DNA of 64,000 bases from Halalkalicoccus paucihalophilus (GTDB lineage Archaea; Halobacteriota; Halobacteria; Halobacteriales; Halalkalicoccaceae): contig NZ_LTAZ01000017.1 of NCBI RefSeq assembly GCF_001593955.1, positions 186,001 through 250,000 of the forward strand, read 5' to 3'. The notes beneath the pieces are model-generated. The model saw only the letters and a program-made list of their open reading frames with translations. It ran no database searches and was not told the origin of the DNA. Below, piece by piece: positions 8,083 to 61,945 of the stretch. Positions within the stretch are counted from its first letter, which is position 1; every line of letters begins with the position of its first letter. The position numbers were made by a program, and so were the translations under genes.

Positions 8083-8933
8083 TCACGTAATCGATTCAAT
8101 CAGCTCAAAACCGTCTTTGAACGTGATCTGGTAAGTGAATCCTGCTGCTTCAACGGCCGTAACGACCCCCTGACCAGCATCGGTGTCTGTCGTTACAAGA
8201 CATACTGATGGTGCCGATCCCTGGAGAAGGAGTTGGACTGCGACGCCTGCGAGTGCGGTGTCTGCCCGCTCGATTTGGTCTTCAGGCCGATTGGACGAAT
8301 TGGCGATGTGACATCCTCCCCGCCGTGAACGACGGGGCTTCCCACAAGACCGACCTTGCTGAGTTGGGTATTTGCAGGGTCGCACACCGACGAGGTGCTG
8401 GCACTGCCACAGTGCCGTTACTCCTATCCCTGAGCCGCAGTCGTTTCGGTCGTTTCGGTTCCGACCAAACGCGGTTCCACTCGGGTTTTCGGGATTCAGA
8501 GGTACCTGATTCTTTAACGTCGGATAAACACAGATACCCCCCCCCCGAAAGCACCTAAGCCTACCGATTCGGGGGGGTTTGCGAACCGCGCGGCGATTCA
8601 CGCCCGCCGTAAACGGCGGGATTCTCTCGCCTAAGAGAGATAGCTTTGTGTCCTATCCATCACCGTTGCTATCGTGCTGTTTGTATAGTCAAGTTCCTCA
8701 GAAACAGTCACCCAGCCACTCGTGATTGCACTGTCAATCGGTATCTGTCCCGGTGTACTCTGTGCTGGTGCACCGGTGAGCTCCTCGTAGACGTGCTGTG
8801 GAACGACGAACGTGATCTGGTTGTGCGTTGCAAAACGTTCAAGAGCAGTGTATTTGGTATTCTCTTGGCGGCCACATGCAATGAACAACCCTGAATCAGC
8901 AATCCAGGCAGTACTATCGGACGGAGTACTCAT
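8083..8933 (-). pseudogene. PIN-domain protein gene split by an IS605-type element
   Basis: The 5' part (8933 to 8640) encodes an N-terminus with the PIN-like IADSGLFIACGRQ and YEELTGAPAQ motifs. The 3' part (8307 to 8083) encodes NSSNRPEDQIERADTALAGV, then LVTTDTDAGQG and the end. Removing 8308-8639 joins AGC-TAT to ATC-GCC in frame and gives a continuous protein of 172 aa, with late acidic residues (TDTD) as PIN nucleases have. The gene lies 14 bp after a winged-helix protein gene and was probably the ribonuclease half of that pair. As it stands only a truncated protein stopping at 8631 can be made. Confidence 0.8.
8308..8639. mobile_element. 332-bp non-autonomous IS200/IS605-family element
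   Basis: Boundaries come from the clean reconstruction of the PIN gene on both sides. The right end begins GTGACATCC and carries a CCCCG/CGGGG hairpin. That start equals the right end of the TnpB relic at 19586. Near the other end is a perfect hairpin at 8603-8620, 8-bp arms CCCGCCGT/ACGGCGGG with a 2-nt loop. A further run of cytosines at about 8540 can pair with a guanine run at about 8570. No transposase frame remains. Subterminal hairpins and the lack of target duplication fit the family. Confidence 0.7.
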
Positions 8934-8947
8934 AGAAACAGGCCCAT

Positions 8948-9541
8948 CTATGAATCGCGATTAGCTGCTTCAGTCCGAGCGTTTCGAATCTGGTCGAAAT
9001 AGGGATCGTGCGTGCGCATGTCCTGAATGACCTCCCGGAGTGCGTGCAAAACGGCGATTCCAACTGCCGGTTGGAGATCGAGCTCACGAGCAGCGACCCG
9101 TTCGGTCATCTCGCCGTCTACATATAGAACTGCGTACGTTACCGCAGCAGCAAGTTTGCCGAGGCCGTATCTCTCGACCACAAACGCGAGATCCCGATCG
9201 TTCGACGTGCGACCAACGGCTTCGATAAGTGTGGGGGTAATCGTATATGTATCCCCGTCAAGGTTCGTGGTTAGCCTGATCGGGGTTGCCGTGTAGGTGT
9301 GGGTTTTCTGTGATTCATCACGCGTGAGCAGTCCTAGATCGACGAGTGTTCCTGTATCAGCGTATACTGTCGTGCGTGGTGTCTCCAGGTCAGCGGTGAT
9401 TGTATCAATCGTTGCCTTGTCCTCGCGAAGGATATACGTATAGAGGCGGGCGAGGCGTGGCTCTTCGAGTACGTGAGCCACAGAGAGGAGCCTATTGATC
9501 GCTCGTTCCGAAGCGCCGATAGCCTGTGACATACAATTCAT
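8948..9541 (-). CDS. Winged-helix regulator, partner of the PIN gene
   Basis: A 197-aa product from the ATG at 9541; ATG 9532 is also possible. The N-terminal half (LEEPRLARLYTYILREDKAT to GTLVDLGLLTRDES) reads as a winged helix-turn-helix. The C-terminal half (LAFVVERYGLGKLAAAVTYA) is a helical region seen in a haloarchaeal family often found before PIN genes (DUF7437-like, from memory). It overlaps no neighbour, and the PIN gene starts 14 bp after its stop. It probably represses its own operon through the palindrome just upstream. Whether it also neutralises the toxin is inference. Confidence 0.65.
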   Translation of the reverse strand: MNCMSQAIGASERAINRLLSVAHVLEEPRLARLYTYILREDKATIDTITADLETPRTTVYADTGTLVDLGLLTRDESQKTHTYTATPIRLTTNLDGDTYTITPTLIEAVGRTSNDRDLAFVVERYGLGKLAAAVTYAVLYVDGEMTERVAARELDLQPAVGIAVLHALREVIQDMRTHDPYFDQIRNARTEAANRDS

Positions 9542-9555
9542 GATTTGTGTATTGA

Positions 9556-9572
9556 GTAACAACTCTTGTTAC
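9556..9572. promoter_or_regulatory. Palindromic candidate operator of the regulator/PIN operon
   Basis: GTAACAA-CTC-TTGTTAC is a perfect 7-bp inverted repeat with a 3-nt spacer, located 15-31 bp upstream of the ATG at 9541. This is where a TATA box would sit, so a bound dimer would block transcription. It fits autoregulation by the winged-helix protein. Confidence 0.55.
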
Positions 9573-9625
9573 GGGAAGTGCGGTATGGCGTCGTAACGAA
9601 AGCAGACAGTAGAATACTATGAGGC

Positions 9626-9669
9626 CTTGTGCAACGGGATGCATCAGAGGAGGAGAGTTGTTGCACAAG
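9626..9669. repeat. CTTGTGCAAC/GTTGCACAAG inverted repeat, copy 1
   Basis: Perfect 10-bp arms separated by 24 nt. The same arms with different interiors occur at 49283-49325 and 62166-62206. Copies 1 and 2 directly precede the conserved non-coding repeat of the plasmid module. It could be the fused ends of a lost insertion sequence, a protein-binding site or a transcription terminator. Confidence 0.7.
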
Positions 9670-9911
9670 GCGCTGTCTAATTGATCACACCGTGGTGTGA
9701 TATACTTCCGAAGGTAGAACCAGCAAAATCATTTCTACTCCTTCCACTACTACTAATCCAAGGGAAGGCTGCTCGGAGTTGTGACTAGGAGCGGAGGGCG
9801 TGCCCGGGGTGGTTGTCGTCGACTATGCTCCTTGTTGTTGTCCCGTTGTTAGGACATCACGCTCTCTGCGGGGGGTCGCTCAATATCCCGATCACAACGA
9901 TCGTGATAGCG
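9670..9911 (-). repeat. Module repeat R1: conserved non-coding block plus 20-codon gene relic
   Basis: Bases 9670-9848 match 17911-18081, 24478-24649 and 49326-49504 closely. They contain the 8-bp-arm palindrome ATCACACC-GT-GGTGTGAT and a second GTAGAA...TTCTAC pair (mismatched here by one loop base). Bases 9849-9911 are the last 20 codons (RYHDRCDRDIERPPAESVMS) of the coiled-coil gene seen intact at 24650 and 49505. Homology stops sharply after the RYHD codons. It forms the left border of the PGA cassette. Confidence 0.8.
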
Positions 9912-10095
9912 CATAGTCGCCTTTAACCTATGAAGGTATGATTTCTTCCTACAGCCTCTGTCTGCTTGATTCCACCCTTTTAGAACTTCTTTGAGCAGTT
10001 TGAGAAGAGATGTCTTACCCCGTTCGTTTGGGAAAGCCAGCATTATAATATATATGTTGTAAATAAATTTATGCATTCTGATAGTGATATTCTAA
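9912..10095. promoter_or_regulatory. AT-rich promoter region of the first PGA hydrolase
   Basis: Runs of A/T around 10040-10075, including TATAATATATATG and AAATAAATTTATG, lie 20-55 nt before the GTG start. The T/A-rich block at about 10062-10070 is at the right distance for a TATA box of a leaderless gene. Confidence 0.4.
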
Positions 10096-11064
10096 GTGGC
10101 TAATAAGAATACAGTCTCACGGCGGCAGGTGATGAAAGCAGTAGGAGGAGGAATAGGTCTCACAGTTGGTTCAAATGCTTTTGCTACTAGAGCAAAGGCA
10201 GTAGACTCTGTTACAGTACGCCAGAACAATCGTGACTTGCGGGGTCAACAAGAACGCTGCATAATCAGCGAGGATCTCCATTCCGCGCTGAAAATGACAA
10301 TAAATGGACAAGTACGTGTCGGAGGACAGAATGATGAGACAAAATACGAATCCGGGTTGTATACAGTTACGGAGACCAGTCTTGAATCGACTACAGTCGA
10401 GATGAGTAAAGACGGATTAGACCGGCTTGGCTTTACGAACAATTCATCTGGATTTGTTGATCCGAATGCACCCCACCCAGAATATGAGACGAGAAGGATG
10501 GCGGACAAAAAAGATGAATACGTCGAGATACTCGTCGACAATGAGGAGCAGTCAGACCTAGTTGCGTGTGCACCTCATGGGGGTTGGATCGAATACCGAA
10601 CTGATGCGCAATCAGCATACGTTGCTACTGCATTAGACGTAACTGAATGGTCATGTGCAGGTTACAACAGTGGAGGAGGAGCATATGACCGATGGCACAT
10701 TACGTCAACAGCGATTGATAGACGGTCGTTCCCGAAGCTAGACAGTATTAGCGATCGAGAATTCACGCACGCAGTGAGTTTCCATGGGTTTTCCCGCTCG
10801 GGAATCGTAATCGGTGGCAATGCAGATAATCACCTCAAGAAGAAAGTGCGTGATAAAATAGACTCACTGACTAATGGGAAGTATGATATCACTCTCGTTG
10901 ATAGTGATAGTCCTTACTCGGGTACTTCCTCCGAGAATTTCGTCAATTGGCTCACTAAAGACGGAAATGGACTTCAAATAGAGCAAGGGTGGGAAGCACG
11001 GACTACTGATTGGAAAACGATTGCGACAGCGGTTGCCAAGGTATATAGAAATGAGATTGGGTAA
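10096..11064 (+). CDS. Exported poly-gamma-glutamate hydrolase 1
   Basis: Poly-gamma-glutamate hydrolase family (PF05908-type zinc hydrolase that cuts gamma-glutamyl bonds of PGA). A GTG start gives MANKNTVSRRQVMKAVGGGI, a Tat signal with cleavage near residue 35. Family motifs are visible: APHGGWIEYRTDAQ (zinc-binding His), VSFHGFSRSGIVIGG (second His), and Glu in the C-terminal LQIEQGWEAR. The sequence is 322 aa and AT-rich relative to the other PGA genes. It opens the PGA cluster, so it may set chain length or release the capsule. Confidence 0.85.
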   Translation: MANKNTVSRRQVMKAVGGGIGLTVGSNAFATRAKAVDSVTVRQNNRDLRGQQERCIISEDLHSALKMTINGQVRVGGQNDETKYESGLYTVTETSLESTTVEMSKDGLDRLGFTNNSSGFVDPNAPHPEYETRRMADKKDEYVEILVDNEEQSDLVACAPHGGWIEYRTDAQSAYVATALDVTEWSCAGYNSGGGAYDRWHITSTAIDRRSFPKLDSISDREFTHAVSFHGFSRSGIVIGGNADNHLKKKVRDKIDSLTNGKYDITLVDSDSPYSGTSSENFVNWLTKDGNGLQIEQGWEARTTDWKTIATAVAKVYRNEIG

Positions 11065-17910: not shown

Positions 17911-18285
17911 TATCTAATCACACCGTGGTGTGATATGGTTCCGAAGCTAGAACCAGCAAAATCGTTTCTACCCCCTACACTACTACTAACCCAAGGTACG
18001 ACTCTTCGGAGTTGTGACTAGAGGAGGAGGGCTTGCCCGGGGTGGTTAGTTCGAACTGTGCGCCTTCCTTTTGGTCCGTTGTTAGGACATCACGCTCTCT
18101 GCGGGGGCGTGTTCGATATCCCGGTCACAACGATCGTGATAGCGGTCGGCTGCATTCTCATCGACCACCACGAGCTTCTTCCCACGTCGTTTGGTCTGTT
18201 CGATGTCGTCTTTCCCAAGCTTTGCGAGGAAGTTCATGACACGGGCCACAGTTTGGGTGTGGGGCTTCGTTCCCTCTGCAGCGGT
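17911..18285 (-). repeat. Module repeat R2: non-coding block plus 67-codon gene relic
   Basis: Bases 17911-18081 are a diverged copy of the conserved block, with the ATCACACC-GT-GGTGTGAT palindrome intact. Bases 18082-18285 encode the C-terminal 67 residues of the coiled-coil protein (TAAEGTKPHTQTVARVMNFL to AESVMS). The residues that precede TAAEG in intact copies (PAGLVLDSQTIAKV) are found 1.9 kb away at 20165-20212 in the same orientation, so a cassette has been inserted exactly here. It forms the right border of the PGA region. Confidence 0.8.
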
Positions 18286-18373
18286 GAATCCGGACGAGTA
18301 ACGAACTAGTACCTCAATCGACGGCTGGTTGTTCGGGGAGACACCCTGGCTGCGACATGAAGAACGGAAACCG

Positions 18374-18784
18374 TTAGCGCTCGGGTCGCGGAGCGGTCTC
18401 GTATCGTTTGATGTCGTCTGTCTTCTCCACTCGATCGTAGATCTCGCGAAGCGTGTCTTGTGCCCGGAGGAGCTTGTGCTCATCGAGGAACTGCCGACCA
18501 CTCTCACAGATTCCGTAGAACTTGTACGGGAGGTTATTCTTCCGGCGATCCTCGGGCAGGAGGACTTCCTCGACGATGCCAGCGTTGACGAGCTGCTGGA
18601 GGTGCTGACGAATCGTTGTCTGGCTCTTACTCGGGTTGACGTAGTCGAGTTCTTTTAGCGTCGGCAGTTCCGACGGATGCCCGAGGATGTCCTGGAGGAG
18701 CGCGAATCGCGTCTCCTGGGTGACGACATTGAGCCGCTCCCGAACGGACTCCAAGTCGCTTGGCGGATGATCGGATGTACTCAT
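18374..18784 (-). CDS. Winged-helix transcriptional regulator (136 aa)
   Basis: ArsR/MarR-like haloarchaeal winged helix: VTQETRFALLQDILGHPSEL, recognition region KSQTTIRQHLQQLVNAGIVE, and wing EDRRKNNLPYKFYGICESG. The C-terminal helix may dimerise. It is divergent from the gene at 18906, and the shared 120-bp gap probably holds both promoters. This divergent pair is one I associate with haloarchaeal genomes generally, so the regulator may control that neighbour. Confidence 0.7.
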   Translation of the reverse strand: MSTSDHPPSDLESVRERLNVVTQETRFALLQDILGHPSELPTLKELDYVNPSKSQTTIRQHLQQLVNAGIVEEVLLPEDRRKNNLPYKFYGICESGRQFLDEHKLLRAQDTLREIYDRVEKTDDIKRYETAPRPER

Positions 18785-24649: not shown

Positions 24650-25402
24650 TTAGGACATCACGCTCTCTGTAGGGGGTTGCTCGATATCCCGATCACAACG
24701 ATCGTGATAGCGGTCAGCTGCTTCCTCCTCAACCACGACGAGTTTCTTGCCACGTCGCTTTGTTTGCTCGACCTCGCCCTTGCCCATCTTCGCGAGGAAG
24801 TCCATGACACGGGCCACAGTCTGCGTGTGGGGCTTCGAACCTTCTGCGGCAGTAATCACCTTGGCGATCGTCTGGCTATCGAGCACGAGCCCAGCAGGTG
24901 CCTTCTCGGCGTAATCGCGAACGTCCCGAGCAATGAAGCGAGCGCGTTTCTGGTTGGTCGTGAGCTCGCGATCGGCGACGTGCTCCGGGAGGGCACAGAT
25001 CCGCTCAAGCGGAGTGTTGGTCTCGTACGACTCCGCCGTGTCCGTTTCCGCCCCTGAAGTACTGTTGTTGGAAGTGACCGCTTCTACGTTGTCGAGTCGA
25101 TTGTGGGCTTGATCTGCGTTCTCTGTCGTGTTTTGGAGGATCGATCCCAGCGGAATCCCAGCGACCCAGATATCCGTGAGGCCCGCAGTGTCGCCGTCTG
25201 ATTTGATCTCAACGGGAGTGTGTTCATGTTGGGCTTCGAGCTGCTCGATGCGCTCGTCTTTGCGTTCGACTTCGGCCTCGAGTTCTGCGACGCGGTCGGT
25301 GAGCGTTTCCAGCTGTTCACAGACGGCCTCGAGGGTTAGTTCCTCAGTCGTCGGCTGGTCAGTAGCGGTACTCTCAGCAGTCGTGGATGTGGGTTCAGTC
25401 AT
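24650..25402 (-). CDS. Coiled-coil plasmid-module protein, copy A (250 aa)
   Basis: An acidic Thr-rich N-terminus is followed by a strong coiled coil (EAVCEQLETLTDRVAELEAE, VERKDERIEQLEAQ), a variable linker, then a well conserved 110-residue C-terminal domain (PLERICALPEHVADRELTTN; FIARDVRDYAEKAPAGLVLD; TVARVMDFLAKMGKG; RGKKLVVVEEEAADRYHDRC). The C-terminal part alternates helices and a basic turn and could be a winged-helix DNA-binding domain. The partner zinc-finger gene is 166 bp upstream on the same strand. Module copies occur elsewhere in this window, so a role in plasmid maintenance or in a mobile unit is likely but unproven. Confidence 0.7.
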   Translation of the reverse strand: MTEPTSTTAESTATDQPTTEELTLEAVCEQLETLTDRVAELEAEVERKDERIEQLEAQHEHTPVEIKSDGDTAGLTDIWVAGIPLGSILQNTTENADQAHNRLDNVEAVTSNNSTSGAETDTAESYETNTPLERICALPEHVADRELTTNQKRARFIARDVRDYAEKAPAGLVLDSQTIAKVITAAEGSKPHTQTVARVMDFLAKMGKGEVEQTKRRGKKLVVVEEEAADRYHDRCDRDIEQPPTESVMS

Positions 25403-49504: not shown

Positions 49505-50212
49505 TTAGGAAATCACGCCTCCTGCGGGGGGTTGCTCAATATCCCGATCACAACGATCGTGATAGCGGTCGGCTGCTTCCTCATTGATGACCACGAGTTT
49601 CTTCCCGCGTCGTTTCGTCTGCTCAACCTCGTCTTTTCCGAGCTTTTCGAGGAAGTTCATGACACGGGCCACAGTTTGCGTGTGGGGCTTCGTTCCCTCC
49701 ATCGCAGTCAAGACCTTCGTGATGGTTCGACTATCGAGCACAAGGCCAGCAGGCGCTCTCTCGGCGTAGTCCTGCACGTCCCGAGCAATGAAGCGCGCGC
49801 GTTTCTGGTTGGTCGTGAGCTCGCGATCGACGACGTGCTCGGGAAGCGTACAGATCCGCTCTAATGGTGTCTCCGTAGTCGTGGTCTGGGAGGCTCCGTT
49901 CTCCTCGGCGTCAACGGTGGTGGTCGCTGTGGGCGTCTCCTGGAGTGTCGTTTCGAGCTCTTGGGTCTGGTCTTCGACCTCGGTGATCCGTCCGCGAACG
50001 TCGGCAAACTCCGAACCGGCAAAGCGCTTGTACTCGGTGAGCTCTGCTTCGAGTTCCTCGATCCGGTCGTCTTTGCGTTCGACTTCGGCCTCGAGTTCCG
50101 CAACGCGATCGGTGAGCGCCTCGAGCTGTTCGTAGACGGCCTCGAGGGTTAGTTCCTCAGTCGTCGGCTGGTCAGTAGCGGTACTCTCGGTAGGTGTGGT
50201 GGTTTCATTCAT
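49505..50212 (-). CDS. Coiled-coil plasmid-module protein, copy B (235 aa)
   Basis: Same layout as copy A: acidic N-terminus, coiled coil (LEALTDRVAELEAEVERKDD, RIEELEAELTEYKRFAGSEF), linker, then the C-terminal domain ending DRYHDRCDRDIEQPPAGGVI. N-terminal 40 and C-terminal 110 residues are nearly identical between the copies while the middle is quite different, which suggests recombination or selection on the ends. Partner zinc-finger genes lie upstream on the same strand. Confidence 0.7.
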   Translation of the reverse strand: MNETTTPTESTATDQPTTEELTLEAVYEQLEALTDRVAELEAEVERKDDRIEELEAELTEYKRFAGSEFADVRGRITEVEDQTQELETTLQETPTATTTVDAEENGASQTTTTETPLERICTLPEHVVDRELTTNQKRARFIARDVQDYAERAPAGLVLDSRTITKVLTAMEGTKPHTQTVARVMNFLEKLGKDEVEQTKRRGKKLVVINEEAADRYHDRCDRDIEQPPAGGVIS

Positions 50213-51524: not shown

Positions 51525-51779
51525 ATGCGTATTCAGGTCCAGCAAATGGTTAACGAGGATTACGAACCTACTGAAAAAGACGAACTCATCCTAGAGGCTC
51601 TAAAAGACGGAAGAAAGGAAAAAAAGCCCTGGGGACGAGCAAACCCCACTTGGCTTATCGAAAAAACAGAACTCGATAAGGGAAATGTCGAGTTTTGTCT
51701 CCGTAGTCTAACGAGTGCCGGGTGGATAAAACGGACTGCTCGTGGTCTCTATGAGTTTGTAGATGACCCTCGAGAATAG
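51525..51779 (+). CDS. Small winged-helix regulator, divergent to module (84 aa)
   Basis: MRIQVQQMVNEDYEPTEKDE, LILEALKDGRKEKKPWGRAN, TELDKGNVEFCLRSLTSAGW, IKRTARGLYEFVDDP. This is a winged helix typical of small haloarchaeal phage or plasmid repressors. Its position next to the twin dyads suggests it controls both itself and the module genes. Confidence 0.75.
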   Translation: MRIQVQQMVNEDYEPTEKDELILEALKDGRKEKKPWGRANPTWLIEKTELDKGNVEFCLRSLTSAGWIKRTARGLYEFVDDPRE

Positions 51780-52083: not shown

Positions 52084-53109
52084 ATGGAATTGGGGGAACA
52101 GGAGCCATTCACATATGATGGCCGATTGGTTTTTAACGGCATTTATACCACAAAAATTATCAATTCTGATTTAGATTTTCAGGAAGTAATCAGTAACGAC
52201 TTGACGAATTTTTCCGACGGTTCTATTGATAACCCTGGGCACGGTTATCAAGTTCTTCCATTTTCTCAATTCATGGAAGATACCTCTGTTAGCCCTAAGA
52301 TTGAGCGTGAATTAGGTGAGATCCATGGTTTCAGATACTTGGAAGAAATATGGGAATACCATGAAGTTGCTATAAATGGGTCTACTGAGAACCGACCTAC
52401 TTTAGCCAAAAATTCATCCTTCGATGCATATTGGGCTTACCCTGACTATTTCTTTATAAAGGGTAATAAAACTGAAACTCGAAAAGCAGAAGAACTAGTC
52501 CAATATGCCTTAGATGATTACATACAAATCAAAGAAATCAGTTTCCATCCTGAGTTCTTACTCTGGCTTTTCTCGAAGGAGAAAAACGGAGATGATCTTC
52601 CTGGAAGTATATCAATCAATATGCTGACCGACGCAGAGATTAGTGGTGAAAGTCCGGATCTGCTTGGACAGCATAGTAAAGTGACTGACTCAATAGATAT
52701 TACTAAATCTGCCCTCGTGTTAATCGGAGTGCTTCAACAGAAAGGACTTGTAGCCTTAGAGGGAGTATTCGAAATAGGTGGACAATTCGTTCGAGCACGT
52801 ATCTCAACTGATGGACGAATCCACATCAAAGCCGATCATGCAATTAAAGGGTCATCCGATTTTGAAAGAATCATCTTATCTCTCGCCTTTATGAGGAGCT
52901 TTACAGGTCTTTATCAATATTGGGAGGACCTTGATGCTGAAAATCGTTATCCACCTGTTGAGTTTTTCATAGATCTCTACAATGAATGCGATAGACAAGG
53001 GATTGAAATCAATTTCTCTATAGATGATGTTATAGGAAAATTCAGGAAAAAAGGAAGCACAGAGGAGTATGAACAGTATCAGTCTGGGCTGGCTGATTTT
53101 AATAGATAA
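52084..53109 (+). CDS. Unknown protein, first of an AT-rich operon (341 aa)
   Basis: MELGEQEPFTYDGRLVFNGI to GLADFNR. No signal or TM helix. Features seen: SSFDAYWAYPDYFFIKGNKT, a charged EELVQYALDD helix, FLLWLFSKEKNGDD, and FERIILSLAFMRSFTGLYQY, which is a hydrophobic helix. Base composition is clearly more AT-rich than the flanking genes and codon choice is unlike them, suggesting recent transfer. I do not recognise a family. Neighbours at 53168 and 53813 follow in the same direction with short gaps. Confidence 0.7.
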   Translation: MELGEQEPFTYDGRLVFNGIYTTKIINSDLDFQEVISNDLTNFSDGSIDNPGHGYQVLPFSQFMEDTSVSPKIERELGEIHGFRYLEEIWEYHEVAINGSTENRPTLAKNSSFDAYWAYPDYFFIKGNKTETRKAEELVQYALDDYIQIKEISFHPEFLLWLFSKEKNGDDLPGSISINMLTDAEISGESPDLLGQHSKVTDSIDITKSALVLIGVLQQKGLVALEGVFEIGGQFVRARISTDGRIHIKADHAIKGSSDFERIILSLAFMRSFTGLYQYWEDLDAENRYPPVEFFIDLYNECDRQGIEINFSIDDVIGKFRKKGSTEEYEQYQSGLADFNR

Positions 53110-53167
53110 CTAGTTATGAGACCAAATCCTATACTCTATGAGCATGGAGATAGAGAGGTAAACTACT

Positions 53168-53803
53168 ATGGCCGTCGCTAACCTACGCAGAGCGGATACG
53201 GCCGGCCCTACTTGGGAGGGTCTCTTACCAGAAACTTCTACAGAAAATCTTTCAATTGAATTTGTCGAATCTGAACCAGCCGAACCCCTCTGTGAGAATT
53301 ATCCGTTCGATCAGCAGATTCACAAAGGCACAGCGATCTACAAAGAACCATCACAATACACTTCTGGACGCAATATATCTCTTGATTTTGAATTTAGAGA
53401 TGGATCAAATCTACTTATCATTGAATTGAAAACCGATGTTACGTCTATTGATTCAATTTATAGCTCTTTAGCCGATATAGTTCCTACTGAGATAACCATC
53501 TATCGTAATCTTCATGCTGCAGAGGATTCTCTTTGGGATTTCTTTTCCCAAGCAGATAGGATTCTAAAAATCCACGTTCTCGACAATGGATTTGAGGTTC
53601 CATATCAAGAAATTGAGGGTGTCGATAAAGAAGATGTTATCGGCAATTACGCTATTGAGACGGCAACAGTCGGATTTCAATATCAAGACGAGTCAATTCT
53701 TGTCAAATATGACCAAGGAAAACTCCAGATTGAAGCTTCTTCTGAAGAAGGACGAGAATACATCATACAAGTTTTTGAACGTGAAGTGCTAGCTGATAGT
53801 TAG
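53168..53803 (+). CDS. Unknown protein, second of the AT-rich operon (211 aa)
   Basis: MAVANLRRADTAGPTWEGLL, then FVESEPAEPLCENYPFDQQI, GRNISLDFEFRDGSNLLIIE, LKTDVTSIDSIYSSLADIVP and AEDSLWDFFSQADRILKIHV. D-x-E-F then I-I-E-L-K is reminiscent of the PD-(D/E)XK nuclease core (Asp, then Glu-x-Lys), but the context is too weak to claim it. Starts 58 bp after the previous gene. Confidence 0.7.
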   Translation: MAVANLRRADTAGPTWEGLLPETSTENLSIEFVESEPAEPLCENYPFDQQIHKGTAIYKEPSQYTSGRNISLDFEFRDGSNLLIIELKTDVTSIDSIYSSLADIVPTEITIYRNLHAAEDSLWDFFSQADRILKIHVLDNGFEVPYQEIEGVDKEDVIGNYAIETATVGFQYQDESILVKYDQGKLQIEASSEEGREYIIQVFEREVLADS

Positions 53804-53812
53804 CTCAATTTC

Positions 53813-54445
53813 ATGGCAAGCGGAGATATCTCTTATAGATCATCTATTCTCCTTTCTACTAGAAAATTCATATCTCACTATAGGGCAACGAATGCACAAT
53901 ACGTAGCAGTTACTGGTGCATCTATTATTTTTGGGCTCTCAGGCCTTCCATCACTCCAACCTCGCCAAAATTTACTAGCTATACTCGCTCTGTTATTTAT
54001 CATTATTTCTATTCTATATCATTATATCTCTGGCAGACCTTTCGGTATTGATCTTTCTTGTACACCGACTCACTTAGTAGATGGACAGCGTCAGCCAGAC
54101 AAAATTGCAGAGAACAGAGATCTGTTACTCCTCCAAGATGGATCTTGTACTCTTCATGGACACATTCAGCTATCAAAGCTCATTTCACAGTTCAACATTC
54201 AATTTTCGCCCTCTAATGAAATTAACGCTGATCTCCGAAATAAGCCTAAACGAGAACATACATATTTACCACAAGACGGCATTCTAAAGTGCGAAAAAGT
54301 TTCTGAGAGAAACTTTCCTTGGGTACTTGAAATCTATTCTAATAGTTCGGTATCTACCAATGATCGGTATCATAAATTGGAGCTTATAGATCTGGATAGT
54401 AATCGGACTTTAGCCAGATTTGATGTTATAGATGTGTCGTATTAA
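53813..54445 (+). CDS. Membrane protein, third of the AT-rich operon (210 aa)
   Basis: Two adjacent hydrophobic segments (AQYVAVTGASIIFGLSGLPS; LLAILALLFIIISILYHYIS) at residues about 27-67 form a likely TM hairpin, followed by a soluble domain (GIDLSCTPTHLVDGQRQPDK; IQLSKLISQFNIQFSPSNEI; NDRYHKLELIDLDSNRTLAR). Starts 9 bp after the second gene. Two TM helices plus a soluble tail behind unknown cytosolic proteins is a plan seen in some anti-phage effectors. Confidence 0.7.
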   Translation: MASGDISYRSSILLSTRKFISHYRATNAQYVAVTGASIIFGLSGLPSLQPRQNLLAILALLFIIISILYHYISGRPFGIDLSCTPTHLVDGQRQPDKIAENRDLLLLQDGSCTLHGHIQLSKLISQFNIQFSPSNEINADLRNKPKREHTYLPQDGILKCEKVSERNFPWVLEIYSNSSVSTNDRYHKLELIDLDSNRTLARFDVIDVSY

Positions 54446-54531: not shown

Positions 54532-55146
54532 CTACTGCTCGACGAGAACCTGTATAACGATCCCGAGGCTCGTGAGCAGAATAGCCAGGAATAGTACACC
54601 ATTCAGTAACCCTGTCAGTGCATATTTGAATCGAGCCGAATTTTGGCGCACTACTCGCTTGTTCTGGTAGATCGCGTCGCTGTACGTCCTAAGCATGATC
54701 TCCGCATAGAGCTTCTCGCCAATATCGTGATCCGCAATGTCCTCGGCAAATTCCCGTCGTGGCCCGTACTGAAACACGCTCGAGAGATACGTGATAATCG
54801 AGAACACTACTGAGACAGTCAACGCCAAGAGTCCCAGTACCAACGTCGTGAACAACGACAGTTCGGAAACGAATCCATCTGCAACTCCGACATCGAGCAC
54901 GAACGACGCACCAGTAAACAGAAGCGCAATAAGAATCGCCAAGTAACGAGTGAGATACTCCGCTTTGTTATCGATGTCATTGAGCGTCTGAATTTGGACG
55001 TCAATCATACGCTCGTACCGGTCAAGAGCATCCAACTTCTCACTTGCATTCGTCTGCGTATGTGGTGTGACGGAAGCGGTAGAACCCGAAGTATTGGTTG
55101 TAGTCGCACCCTCCTCACCCTCCGTATGGTCCTCTGGTTCGGTCAA
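54532..55146 (-). CDS. Three-TM membrane protein, SLATT/Pycsar-effector-like (204 aa)
   Basis: A disordered Thr-rich N-terminus, then IDVQIQTLNDIDNKAEYLTR just before TM1 (66-85), TM2 (97-125), a cytosolic helical loop, and TM3 (174-201). The D-x-K-A segment directly before TM1 followed by two closely spaced TM helices resembles SLATT/PycTM effectors that kill infected cells by breaching the membrane. That is inference from layout. It is coupled to the phosphatase upstream with a 2-nt gap. Confidence 0.65.
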   Translation of the reverse strand: MTEPEDHTEGEEGATTTNTSGSTASVTPHTQTNASEKLDALDRYERMIDVQIQTLNDIDNKAEYLTRYLAILIALLFTGASFVLDVGVADGFVSELSLFTTLVLGLLALTVSVVFSIITYLSSVFQYGPRREFAEDIADHDIGEKLYAEIMLRTYSDAIYQNKRVVRQNSARFKYALTGLLNGVLFLAILLTSLGIVIQVLVEQ

Positions 55147-55148
55147 TG

Positions 55149-55631
55149 TTATACTCCTAGTTGTGTCCAGTATTTGCGGAGATACGAATCAACACCGTTA
55201 CCGGGTGCGAAATCCGGATATCGTTCACTGAATGCCGCCTTCGCTGTCGCGTAATCCTCATTCGGAATGACTTCTTCGCGCTTTGCGAGATACAGTAGTG
55301 CAAGTGCCGGTGATCGTGATTGCCCTTGGTTGCAATGAATGAGGACCTCTCTGTCTGGCAGATGCGTATCAATGAAGTCGAACGCTGCTTCTATGATTGG
55401 TTCTGTGTACTCGTGGGAAAGCGGTCGGTTCATATCGACGAGGTTGAGATAGAGGTCTATTTCCCGGTCGGCAACGAGGTATTCTGGATGATCGGATGAA
55501 AGCGATCCGCGATATCCAACAGCATCCTGATGACAGCTGTGTTTGCAGGCGTGAACGACAGCCCAATCCGACGGAGCAGCGTGGCAATCTCGGTCGTCAC
55601 CAACGTAGAGCCCGTCATATACTTCTTGCAT
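55149..55631 (-). CDS. Dual-specificity-type protein phosphatase (160 aa)
   Basis: ATG 55631 (MQEVYDGLYVGDDRDCHAAP) is chosen. Catalytic P-loop HCNQGQSRS: Cys100 and Arg106 of the CX5R motif, followed by PALALLYLA. Asp65 in NLVDMNRPLSHE may be the general acid. 160 aa is normal for small DSPs. Operon with the three-TM protein. Cys-phosphatases are rare in haloarchaeal accessory DNA, so the pairing is notable. Confidence 0.8.
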   Translation of the reverse strand: MQEVYDGLYVGDDRDCHAAPSDWAVVHACKHSCHQDAVGYRGSLSSDHPEYLVADREIDLYLNLVDMNRPLSHEYTEPIIEAAFDFIDTHLPDREVLIHCNQGQSRSPALALLYLAKREEVIPNEDYATAKAAFSERYPDFAPGNGVDSYLRKYWTQLGV

Positions 55632-55694
55632 ATAAGTATATATTCTATATTGGCGGTAATAACGTTGGGACAAGTTCGTTCATCGCTCTGATTC

Positions 55695-60292: not shown

Positions 60293-61945
60293 ATGAGTGA
60301 GTCAATCGAGCAACTCTTGAACAAAATCGAAAACAGAGAGTTAGTGCTCCCTGAATTCCAGCGTGAGTTTACATGGTCACATGAGCAAGCAAAACTGCTA
60401 GTGGATTCTCTCATGGAAGGCTATCCGACTGGCTCACTTCTACTATGGAAAACCAATGAACCGCCTGCGTTGAAGAATATGCCTGACTATGAGCCAGATG
60501 GCCGTGTCGAAGTGTTACTGGACGGGCAACAGCGACTAACGGTCCTCTATCTTCTAGTCAAAGATAAAATTCCACCATACTATGCAGACCTTCCGAAAGA
60601 TCCGCGGAATCTCTACTACAATCTGGCTACTGGTAATCTCAAGTACTACAAAAAGAGTGAGATGAGTGGGGATCCACGGTGGGTACGAGTAGCAGATTGT
60701 TTTTCCTCGGAGAACGAACCAAACGTCAGTAGCATTGTCGATAACTTATTTGACGAAGACAAATTCGAGAAGTACACTAAATTCGATGAGAACCTCAATC
60801 AGTTAGAGGACATCATCGAAGAAGAAGTGCCGGTCATGTATGTGAAGGACGACGCTAGTCTAAAAGCTGCTTTGACGGTGTTCGATCGGGTCAATAGTCA
60901 AGGGACTCCACTTACCGAATCGGACATTGCGCTTGCTCATATGGTTAGTTCCTGGCCAGAAACGCGCCGTGTTTTCAAAGAGAAGCTTCAAGATTTGGAA
61001 CAAGAGGGCTTCGAATTTGATCTGCCGTTTTTAGCAAGAGGAATGAACGCAGTTATCAATTGCCGAGCGGAGTACAGCCAACTCCACGAGGTAAGTGAAG
61101 AGAGTTTGCGAAATGGGTGGGATGAACTTACGGAAATTCTGGACTATCTCATCAACATCCTTCGTCATCACGCATACATCTACACAACAGACGATCTCAA
61201 TACACCGAATGTTCTTATTCCGATGATAGCACATCTTTCCCGCCATAATAAGGAGTTCCGTTCAGAGAACGAGCGCAACATGATGTTATACTGGATGTAC
61301 GGAGCGCTACTTCTCCGTCGGTATAGTCGTTCTGTAGATGCTAATTTAGCACAAGATTTGAATGCACTTTCAGAAACAGAACCGCTCAAAGCCCTTGTAG
61401 CGACTCTCAAAGAAGAGGAAGGGGAGCCGACTGTGACAGCATCTAATTTAGATCTGCGTGCCGTCAATCACCCCCTGTACAATATGATGTGTATTGTTAT
61501 TCGTAGCCGAGGCGGTGTCGATTGGCGGAATGGGCTTGATCTATCCGAGCCCTATGGTAACTCGTATAAGATTGAACGGCATCATATCTTCCCGCGAAGT
61601 CGGTTGTCTGAGGCAGGATACGATACAGGCGATAACCATTACGACAAGAAGCGAGTGAATGAGATTGCTAATCGTGTCCCACTTACCAAATCCGGAAATA
61701 TCGGCATATTCAACGATCATCCGATCGACTATCTTCCGCAGGTAGAACGGAATTATCCTGATGCATTGGATACTCATATGGTACCTACTGATAGGGATCT
61801 CTGGGAAATAGACCAGTACGAAGAGTTCCTTGCTGCACGCCGAGATCTGATTGCAGCAGGAATTAATGACTATCTGGAGTCGCTTATTGGTGGAATCAAA
61901 CCGATAGAAGCAGAAACAATTGTGGAGACACCAGCCGATAGTTAG
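60293..61945 (+). CDS. GmrSD-type DUF262/HNH restriction-like protein (550 aa)
   Basis: N-terminal DUF262 (ParB-like NTPase, GmrS type): IENRELVLPEFQREFTWSHE, MEGYPTGSLLLWK, and the active DGQQRLTVLY (Asp77-Arg81). The C-terminal HNH nuclease (DUF1524/GmrD type) carries KIERHHIFPRSRLSEAGYD with HH-IFP, then NEIANRVPLTKSGNIGIFND. Fused S+D enzymes of this kind are type IV restriction systems that cut modified (for example glucosylated) DNA. Complete and intact-looking. It flanks the type IIG protein and strengthens the defence-island reading. Confidence 0.88.
   Translation: MSESIEQLLNKIENRELVLPEFQREFTWSHEQAKLLVDSLMEGYPTGSLLLWKTNEPPALKNMPDYEPDGRVEVLLDGQQRLTVLYLLVKDKIPPYYADLPKDPRNLYYNLATGNLKYYKKSEMSGDPRWVRVADCFSSENEPNVSSIVDNLFDEDKFEKYTKFDENLNQLEDIIEEEVPVMYVKDDASLKAALTVFDRVNSQGTPLTESDIALAHMVSSWPETRRVFKEKLQDLEQEGFEFDLPFLARGMNAVINCRAEYSQLHEVSEESLRNGWDELTEILDYLINILRHHAYIYTTDDLNTPNVLIPMIAHLSRHNKEFRSENERNMMLYWMYGALLLRRYSRSVDANLAQDLNALSETEPLKALVATLKEEEGEPTVTASNLDLRAVNHPLYNMMCIVIRSRGGVDWRNGLDLSEPYGNSYKIERHHIFPRSRLSEAGYDTGDNHYDKKRVNEIANRVPLTKSGNIGIFNDHPIDYLPQVERNYPDALDTHMVPTDRDLWEIDQYEEFLAARRDLIAAGINDYLESLIGGIKPIEAETIVETPADS

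Follow-up and report, generated by a model that had tools for sequence, protein, structure and literature searches.

The three genes that we call A, B and C recur as a unit across the Halobacteria and encode two divergent proteins of the RdgC fold together with a protein that carries an N-terminal membrane hairpin. We put the chances at about even that this trio is a haloarchaeal Rex-like exclusion module, in which a predicted heterodimeric clamp would sense DNA and C would be triggered at the membrane. The window, by which we mean the whole stretch of 64,000 nucleotides from Halalkalicoccus paucihalophilus that was analysed, holds all three genes on its + strand: gene A (52084..53109, 341 aa), an RdgC-fold protein and the predicted first subunit of a DNA clamp; gene B (53168..53803, 211 aa), a second RdgC-fold protein and the predicted second subunit; and gene C (53813..54445, 210 aa), the predicted membrane partner or effector, in which an N-terminal two-helix hairpin is followed by a C-terminal soluble part.

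The original prediction had described a compact operon of three unfamiliar genes with low GC content, and that description holds. The open reading frames are real, share a strand and are separated by 58 bp (A to B) and 9 bp (B to C); their GC content is 0.39, compared with 0.52 for the window, and one of 617 sliding windows of the same length is as low or lower. None of the three proteins matched a family in NCBIfam or in PADLOC-DB 2.0.0 at E up to 1. Pfam has no family for A and offered sub-cut-off matches only for B (E 0.11 and 0.18) and for C (EMP70, E 0.017), which we set aside, and PHROGs gave nothing for B or C and a best match of E = 0.1 for A, so that no match in these four libraries rises above chance. 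When the PDB was searched by sequence, the A profile found no match, and the B and C profiles found weak ones only (E 0.14 and above). Recurrence of the trio as a unit in other haloarchaea had been proposed as a check; it was found, and it indicates that these genes are more than chance open reading frames.

Gene A is present in 33 of 391 Halobacteria genomes and in 23 of 86 genera when its own genome is counted (protein search), and a profile search of 392 genomes of the phylum found it in 8, one of which shares the phylum only. An independent profile search located gene B at 28 places in 27 of the 391 genomes. All 28 coincide by coordinates with A-B loci, and B lies directly behind A in every one; the 29th A-B locus is a plasmid record, and two plasmid records carry A and B. 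The gap between the two genes is 32-95 bp in all 29 loci. Neither phage records nor two viral-contig scans, which are sensitive to close relatives only, contained an A homologue.

The surroundings of A fall into a small number of cassette types. Open reading frames around the loci were sorted with profiles built from those same loci and, after the duplicate locus L048 (identical to L032) was dropped, 45 A proteins were available. The next gene is B for 29 of them, a C-family gene for 7, a member of a Schlafen AlbA_2 cluster for 7 (so named from the one member scanned; PF04326, E 7.9e-13) and none of these for 2. In 26 of the 29 A-B loci B is followed by a C-family gene, at a distance of -4 to +11 bp; the third genes of the other three loci (L041:10175-10615, L042:6992-7579 and L055:7216-7716) are missed by the C profile and have no membrane segment. 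Six loci have the two-gene form, with an A of 279-300 aa and a C-family gene behind it, and one more, L062, has a longer A. The four cassette types can be placed on the tree of A proteins with 4 changes, against a minimum of 3 and an average of 15 for shuffled labels. Three nearly identical A proteins (L051, L052 and L053) come from genomes of two different families, which speaks for transfer. A-Schlafen cassettes were also seen adjoining A-B-C cassettes in L047, L053, L054, L065 and L066, as if two modules of the same family were travelling together.

AlphaFold2 gave good models of A and B, with a pLDDT of 89 and a pTM of 0.87 for A (44 homologues) and a pLDDT of 86 and a pTM of 0.83 for B (28 homologues). 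When the A model was compared with the PDB by Foldseek, the top three matches were chains of E. coli RdgC (2owl_A, E 2.2e-8, TM 0.45/0.50), followed by 7pkn_L (E 1.6e-5), a chain of the human inner kinetochore (CCAN) that we take from its chain letter to be CENP-L, by 4je3_A from an Iml3-Chl4 entry (3.9e-5) and by Iml3 itself (4it3, 1.0e-4). A separate search with the B model again placed RdgC first (2owl_B, E 2.1e-4; 2owy_A, 6.4e-4), with Iml3 (4it3, 4.1e-3) and the archaeal TBP 1mp9_A (1.2e-2) next. The TM-scores to RdgC are moderate, at 0.45-0.51 for A and 0.29-0.41 for B, with rmsd values of 7-11 A. In a comparison of A with a viral library, nine of the first 11 rows were named, six of them as recombination-associated or RdgC proteins and three as exonucleases.

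Since RdgC came first in both searches, and since the two models show the same 13 strands and helices in the same order, starting from residue 80 in A and from residue 50 in B, we conclude from the models that the two proteins share one fold, of which they are divergent members. Their sequence profiles show no link (hhalign probability 0.4%), so the kinship of the two proteins is one of modelled structure. We infer from their obligate linkage, and from the known dimers of this fold, that A and B pair with each other. They are like E. coli RdgC (PF04381) in fold, as modelled, but the trio differs from it in having two such genes and a membrane partner, and the Pfam RdgC model matched nothing in the 30 A-bearing genomes searched, A and B included. 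The CENP-L/CENP-N pair (Iml3-Chl4) likewise consists of two non-identical subunits of the same fold, and both A and B have Iml3 among their best matches in the PDB; CENP-L and CENP-N, however, are eukaryotic centromere proteins without a membrane partner, and we see no evidence of direct descent. The similarity of Iml3 to RdgC and TBP has itself been published (PMC5095916).

The transmembrane hairpin and soluble domain that had been ascribed to the third gene are both recognizable. By hydropathy, C has two hydrophobic segments, at residues 31-47 and 54-70 (the hairpin, residues 31-70, is encoded by 53903..54022 on the + strand), and a soluble part comes after them. Among the 33 proteins of the C-profile family, from which one duplicate had been removed, 28 have two hydrophobic segments within the first 125 residues, three have more and two have one; two or more segments are present in 31 of the 33, and four of the 33 have one further, later segment.

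The trio had been described as lying beside restriction genes, and these are there. Behind C, on the opposite strand, lie a protein with a weak PycTM match, a dual-specificity-phosphatase-like protein and a type IIG restriction-methylase, and a 550-aa GmrSD_N protein is encoded downstream at 60293-61945 on the + strand (best PADLOC match HEC-05, E 2.5e-55). The gene upstream of A (51525-51779) has only sub-threshold matches of the helix-turn-helix type. At other loci, C is followed after 62 bp by an annotated Shedu SduA (L032), after 85 bp by a TmtA protein on the same strand (L051) and after 66 bp by an unscanned gene of a size similar to that of TmtA (L052). A second TmtA is oriented towards C in L038, and in L037 the opposite strand carries a DrmD-like helicase upstream of A. 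Further neighbours are a cytochrome P450 in L053 and a beta-propeller gene in L050. TmtA is a PADLOC name, and it was absent among the matches listed in a literature search. In a non-random sample of ten neighbours, chosen by size and position and in one case for an existing Shedu annotation, five matched PADLOC at E up to 1e-4 (one of them weakly; mad8, 1.4e-5) and five had no match.

Searches for enrichment near A covered 30 of the 33 genomes that carry it, G107, G182 and G242, with weak matches only, being left out. Nine integrases lie within 15 kb of A among the 150 matches listed of 315, compared with 1.2 expected. For N6-methylases the enrichment is weak: in a list of 86 matches that lacks the window's own methylase, 3 lie within 15 kb (0.7 expected) and 6 lie within 30 kb, two of these being pieces of one protein (1.3 expected). 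As a control, the 64 ABC-transporter matches listed on A-bearing contigs include none within 30 kb of A. A gene cluster designated c4 occurs in 13 loci, and the one member scanned matches a phage integrase in PHROGs. In L043, a short A-C pair begins 10 bp before the end of a pleolipovirus-type Rep gene (8486-10441, - strand; 53% to Haloferax virus Halfgib1 and 41% to Halorubrum pleomorphic virus 6), which suggests that a provirus-like element carries the pair. Because of the integrases near A, the integrase match of c4 and the Rep overlap, the cassettes give the impression of being mobile, and at some of the loci they stand in the company of defence genes. It is therefore reasonable to read the trio as a mobile defence-type module with a predicted antiviral role, given that it recurs, that it matches none of the family libraries searched, that integrases lie nearby and that defence genes stand near several loci. 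To that extent the defence operon envisaged in the original prediction is supported; a nuclease in the second gene is not.

Within this broad reading, the mechanism that we favour is Rex-like. A and B, as different members of the RdgC/RexA/CENP-L fold, would assemble into a heterodimer, a clamp or ring with non-specific affinity for DNA. This complex would sense foreign replication or recombination intermediates, or proteins on these, and would signal to C, whose membrane hairpin would in turn damage or depolarize the membrane or stop growth, so that the infection is aborted. We prefer this mechanism because the A-C cassette has the layout of RexA-RexB, to which the A-B-C cassette adds a second clamp subunit. 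RexA of phage lambda is described as a non-specific DNA-binding dimer of the RdgC fold whose partner, RexB, is a membrane protein of four helices, and the RdgC/RexA fold as related to the IML3-CHL4 heterodimer (PMC11077077). The RexAB system of Pseudomonas putida is reported to abort infection via membrane damage, and overexpression of its RexA to cause a growth stop and membrane damage that depend on RexB (PMC12894663).

The resemblance to the RexAB systems (those of lambda and P. putida, RexABpp, and those of CarolAnn, Sbash and Butters) extends to several features. Like the trio, each joins an RdgC-fold protein to an adjoining gene for a membrane protein, and RexAB and the archaeal cassettes alike occur in prophage or mobile settings. 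RdgC, whose fold RexA is reported to share (PMC11077077), is the top PDB match of both the A and the B model, a C-family membrane-protein gene adjoins the clamp genes in 26 of the 29 A-B loci, and the short A-C cassette has the same two-gene make-up as RexAB. There are also clear differences. The archaeal trio has two different RdgC-fold subunits. RexB is built of four membrane helices, but C combines two such helices with a soluble part, and 28 of the 33 members of its family have the two N-terminal segments. We detect no sequence similarity between A and lambda RexA: hhalign found nothing with the A profile (probability 0.2%), and lambda RexA is absent among the 50 PDB matches listed for A and likewise among the 50 listed for B. 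What argues against a Rex-like working is this lack of direct similarity, together with the way in which C is built and the absence of a hairpin from the third gene of three loci. In those three loci the active component may be the soluble part or else the clamp, as in Butters, for which the effector is described as a cytosolic RexA-like protein (PMC12894663). It should be added that DNA binding by RexA in vitro is reported to show no correlation with exclusion (PMC11077077).

Other explanations start from the same proteins. The original prediction saw a weak PD-(D/E)XK pattern in gene 2, and B could on that basis be a nuclease effector, a reading that is almost certainly wrong. The window's B protein does carry the letters DFEF and ELK, but the motif is not conserved among its 28 homologues, of which 2 have lysine at position 88 and 16 have Glu or Asp at position 86; the residues that are invariant (Q49, R77, S80, Q201 and E204) fall outside it, and the matches of the B model to RdgC, Iml3 and TBP speak against a nuclease. 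If B is instead taken as an RdgC relative, A and B might be RdgC-type modulators that limit RadA-mediated recombination for the benefit of a mobile element, with C as an accessory. That RdgC is the best match of both models, and that phage recombination-associated proteins top the viral matches of A, would agree with such a role. We nevertheless judge it unlikely, since we know of no membrane partner for RdgC, whereas a C-family gene stands behind B at most A-B loci; RdgC, moreover, is described as forming ring-shaped homodimers (PMC11077077).

We give a small but real chance to the idea that the trio tethers DNA to the membrane in the maintenance or partition of a mobile element, A:B holding the DNA and C serving as the anchor, much as Iml3-Chl4 sits on centromeric DNA. 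It would account for the Iml3 matches of the A and B models and would suit the two plasmid records, the integrases near A and the short A-C pair next to a viral-type Rep gene. What counts against a tether is that different A cassettes stand side by side in several loci, that A is also paired with a Schlafen AlbA_2 protein and that 3 of 29 third genes have no membrane segment; the sporadic presence of A (33 of 391 genomes) and the restriction, Shedu and DISARM-type neighbours of some loci are further points against it. A chromatin or architectural operon seems very unlikely. The comparison here is with the RdgC-histone operon, a set of histone, RdgC-like and transmembrane protein genes reported for Halobacteria and Bacillus, which likewise places an RdgC-like and a transmembrane protein in one operon in Halobacteria (PMC11390915). 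By its published description, that operon begins with a histone and its transmembrane protein has a winged-helix domain (PMC11390915), and it is set apart from the trio, where a second RdgC-fold protein lies between A and C. No Pfam histone match was found in A, in B or in the 10 upstream genes scanned, the window's included; 8 of the 29 A-B loci have no same-strand open reading frame of at least 60 aa in the 400 bp upstream of A, and the sparse distribution near integrases does not favour an architectural role.

Because an operon that starts with a histone and also encodes an RdgC-like protein and a membrane protein has been described in Halobacteria (PMC11390915), the trio is not wholly new in kind. 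A literature search, conducted at the level of listings and covering few subscription papers, found neither a prokaryotic clamp made of two RdgC-fold subunits nor any Rex-like systems reported from archaea. A 2026 paper describes lambda RexAB as the first abortive-infection system to be associated with anti-phage defence, states that the way in which it is activated is not yet known and puts the number of RexAB-like systems at only five, the named ones all bacterial or phage (PMC12894663). If the Rex-like working of the trio holds, it would extend the Rex system to archaea, with two different clamp subunits replacing one, and an archaeal family with separate clamp subunits, swappable partners and a two-gene minimum would allow sensor and effector to be tested separately.

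It is possible, though doubtful, that the cassettes together make up a modular archaeal immune family built around an RdgC-fold sensor, in which the A:B clamp is wired to a membrane effector and A elsewhere drives a membrane partner alone or a Schlafen-type protein. As part of that same doubtful reading, A:B would be a prokaryotic counterpart of the two-subunit CENP-L/CENP-N clamp, and mobile heterodimeric clamps would be a candidate kind of source protein for the kinetochore pair. A prokaryotic heterodimer of the RdgC fold would also provide a useful comparison for CENP-L/CENP-N.

Proteins related to A are not confined to the Halobacteria. In another class, 2 of 237 genomes (G594 and G799) have similar loci in which a gene for a protein of about 220 aa, with two membrane segments near its N terminus, is followed directly by one for an A-like protein of about 300 aa; the A-like protein of G594 matches A (hhalign E 2.8e-5). 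We considered whether the three-gene cluster of G594 is the same trio and rejected this, as its other two genes match neither B nor C. What we claim for G594 and G799, whose other genes match neither B nor C, is therefore limited to an A-like protein next to a membrane protein with two helices, and that combination is wider than the trio.

Other genes close to these loci are worth recording. A gene designated c6 (222-257 aa) lies 6-73 bp upstream of A in 10 of the 29 A-B loci (for example, L042:9501-10193), and is well conserved, with a mean column identity of 51%. Pfam has no match for the c6 members scanned, one of which matches phrog_18169 (function unknown); hhalign gave P 0.038 with A and 0.4 with B, and we do not count c6 as a third member of the RdgC fold. 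In the window, the pair of genes at 54532-55673 (- strand) encodes a 174-aa protein that matches PF00782 just under the curated cut-off (E 8.8e-8) and a 204-aa protein of membrane type with a weak match to the Pycsar PycTM family (E 4e-4), and the phosphatase-like and PycTM-like proteins may form a further small defence module. The window also encodes four related proteins or fragments of one family, which we call cluster c9, all on the - strand (9849-10076, 18082-18507, 24650-25402 and 49505-50212), and relatives of them occur in L037 and L059.
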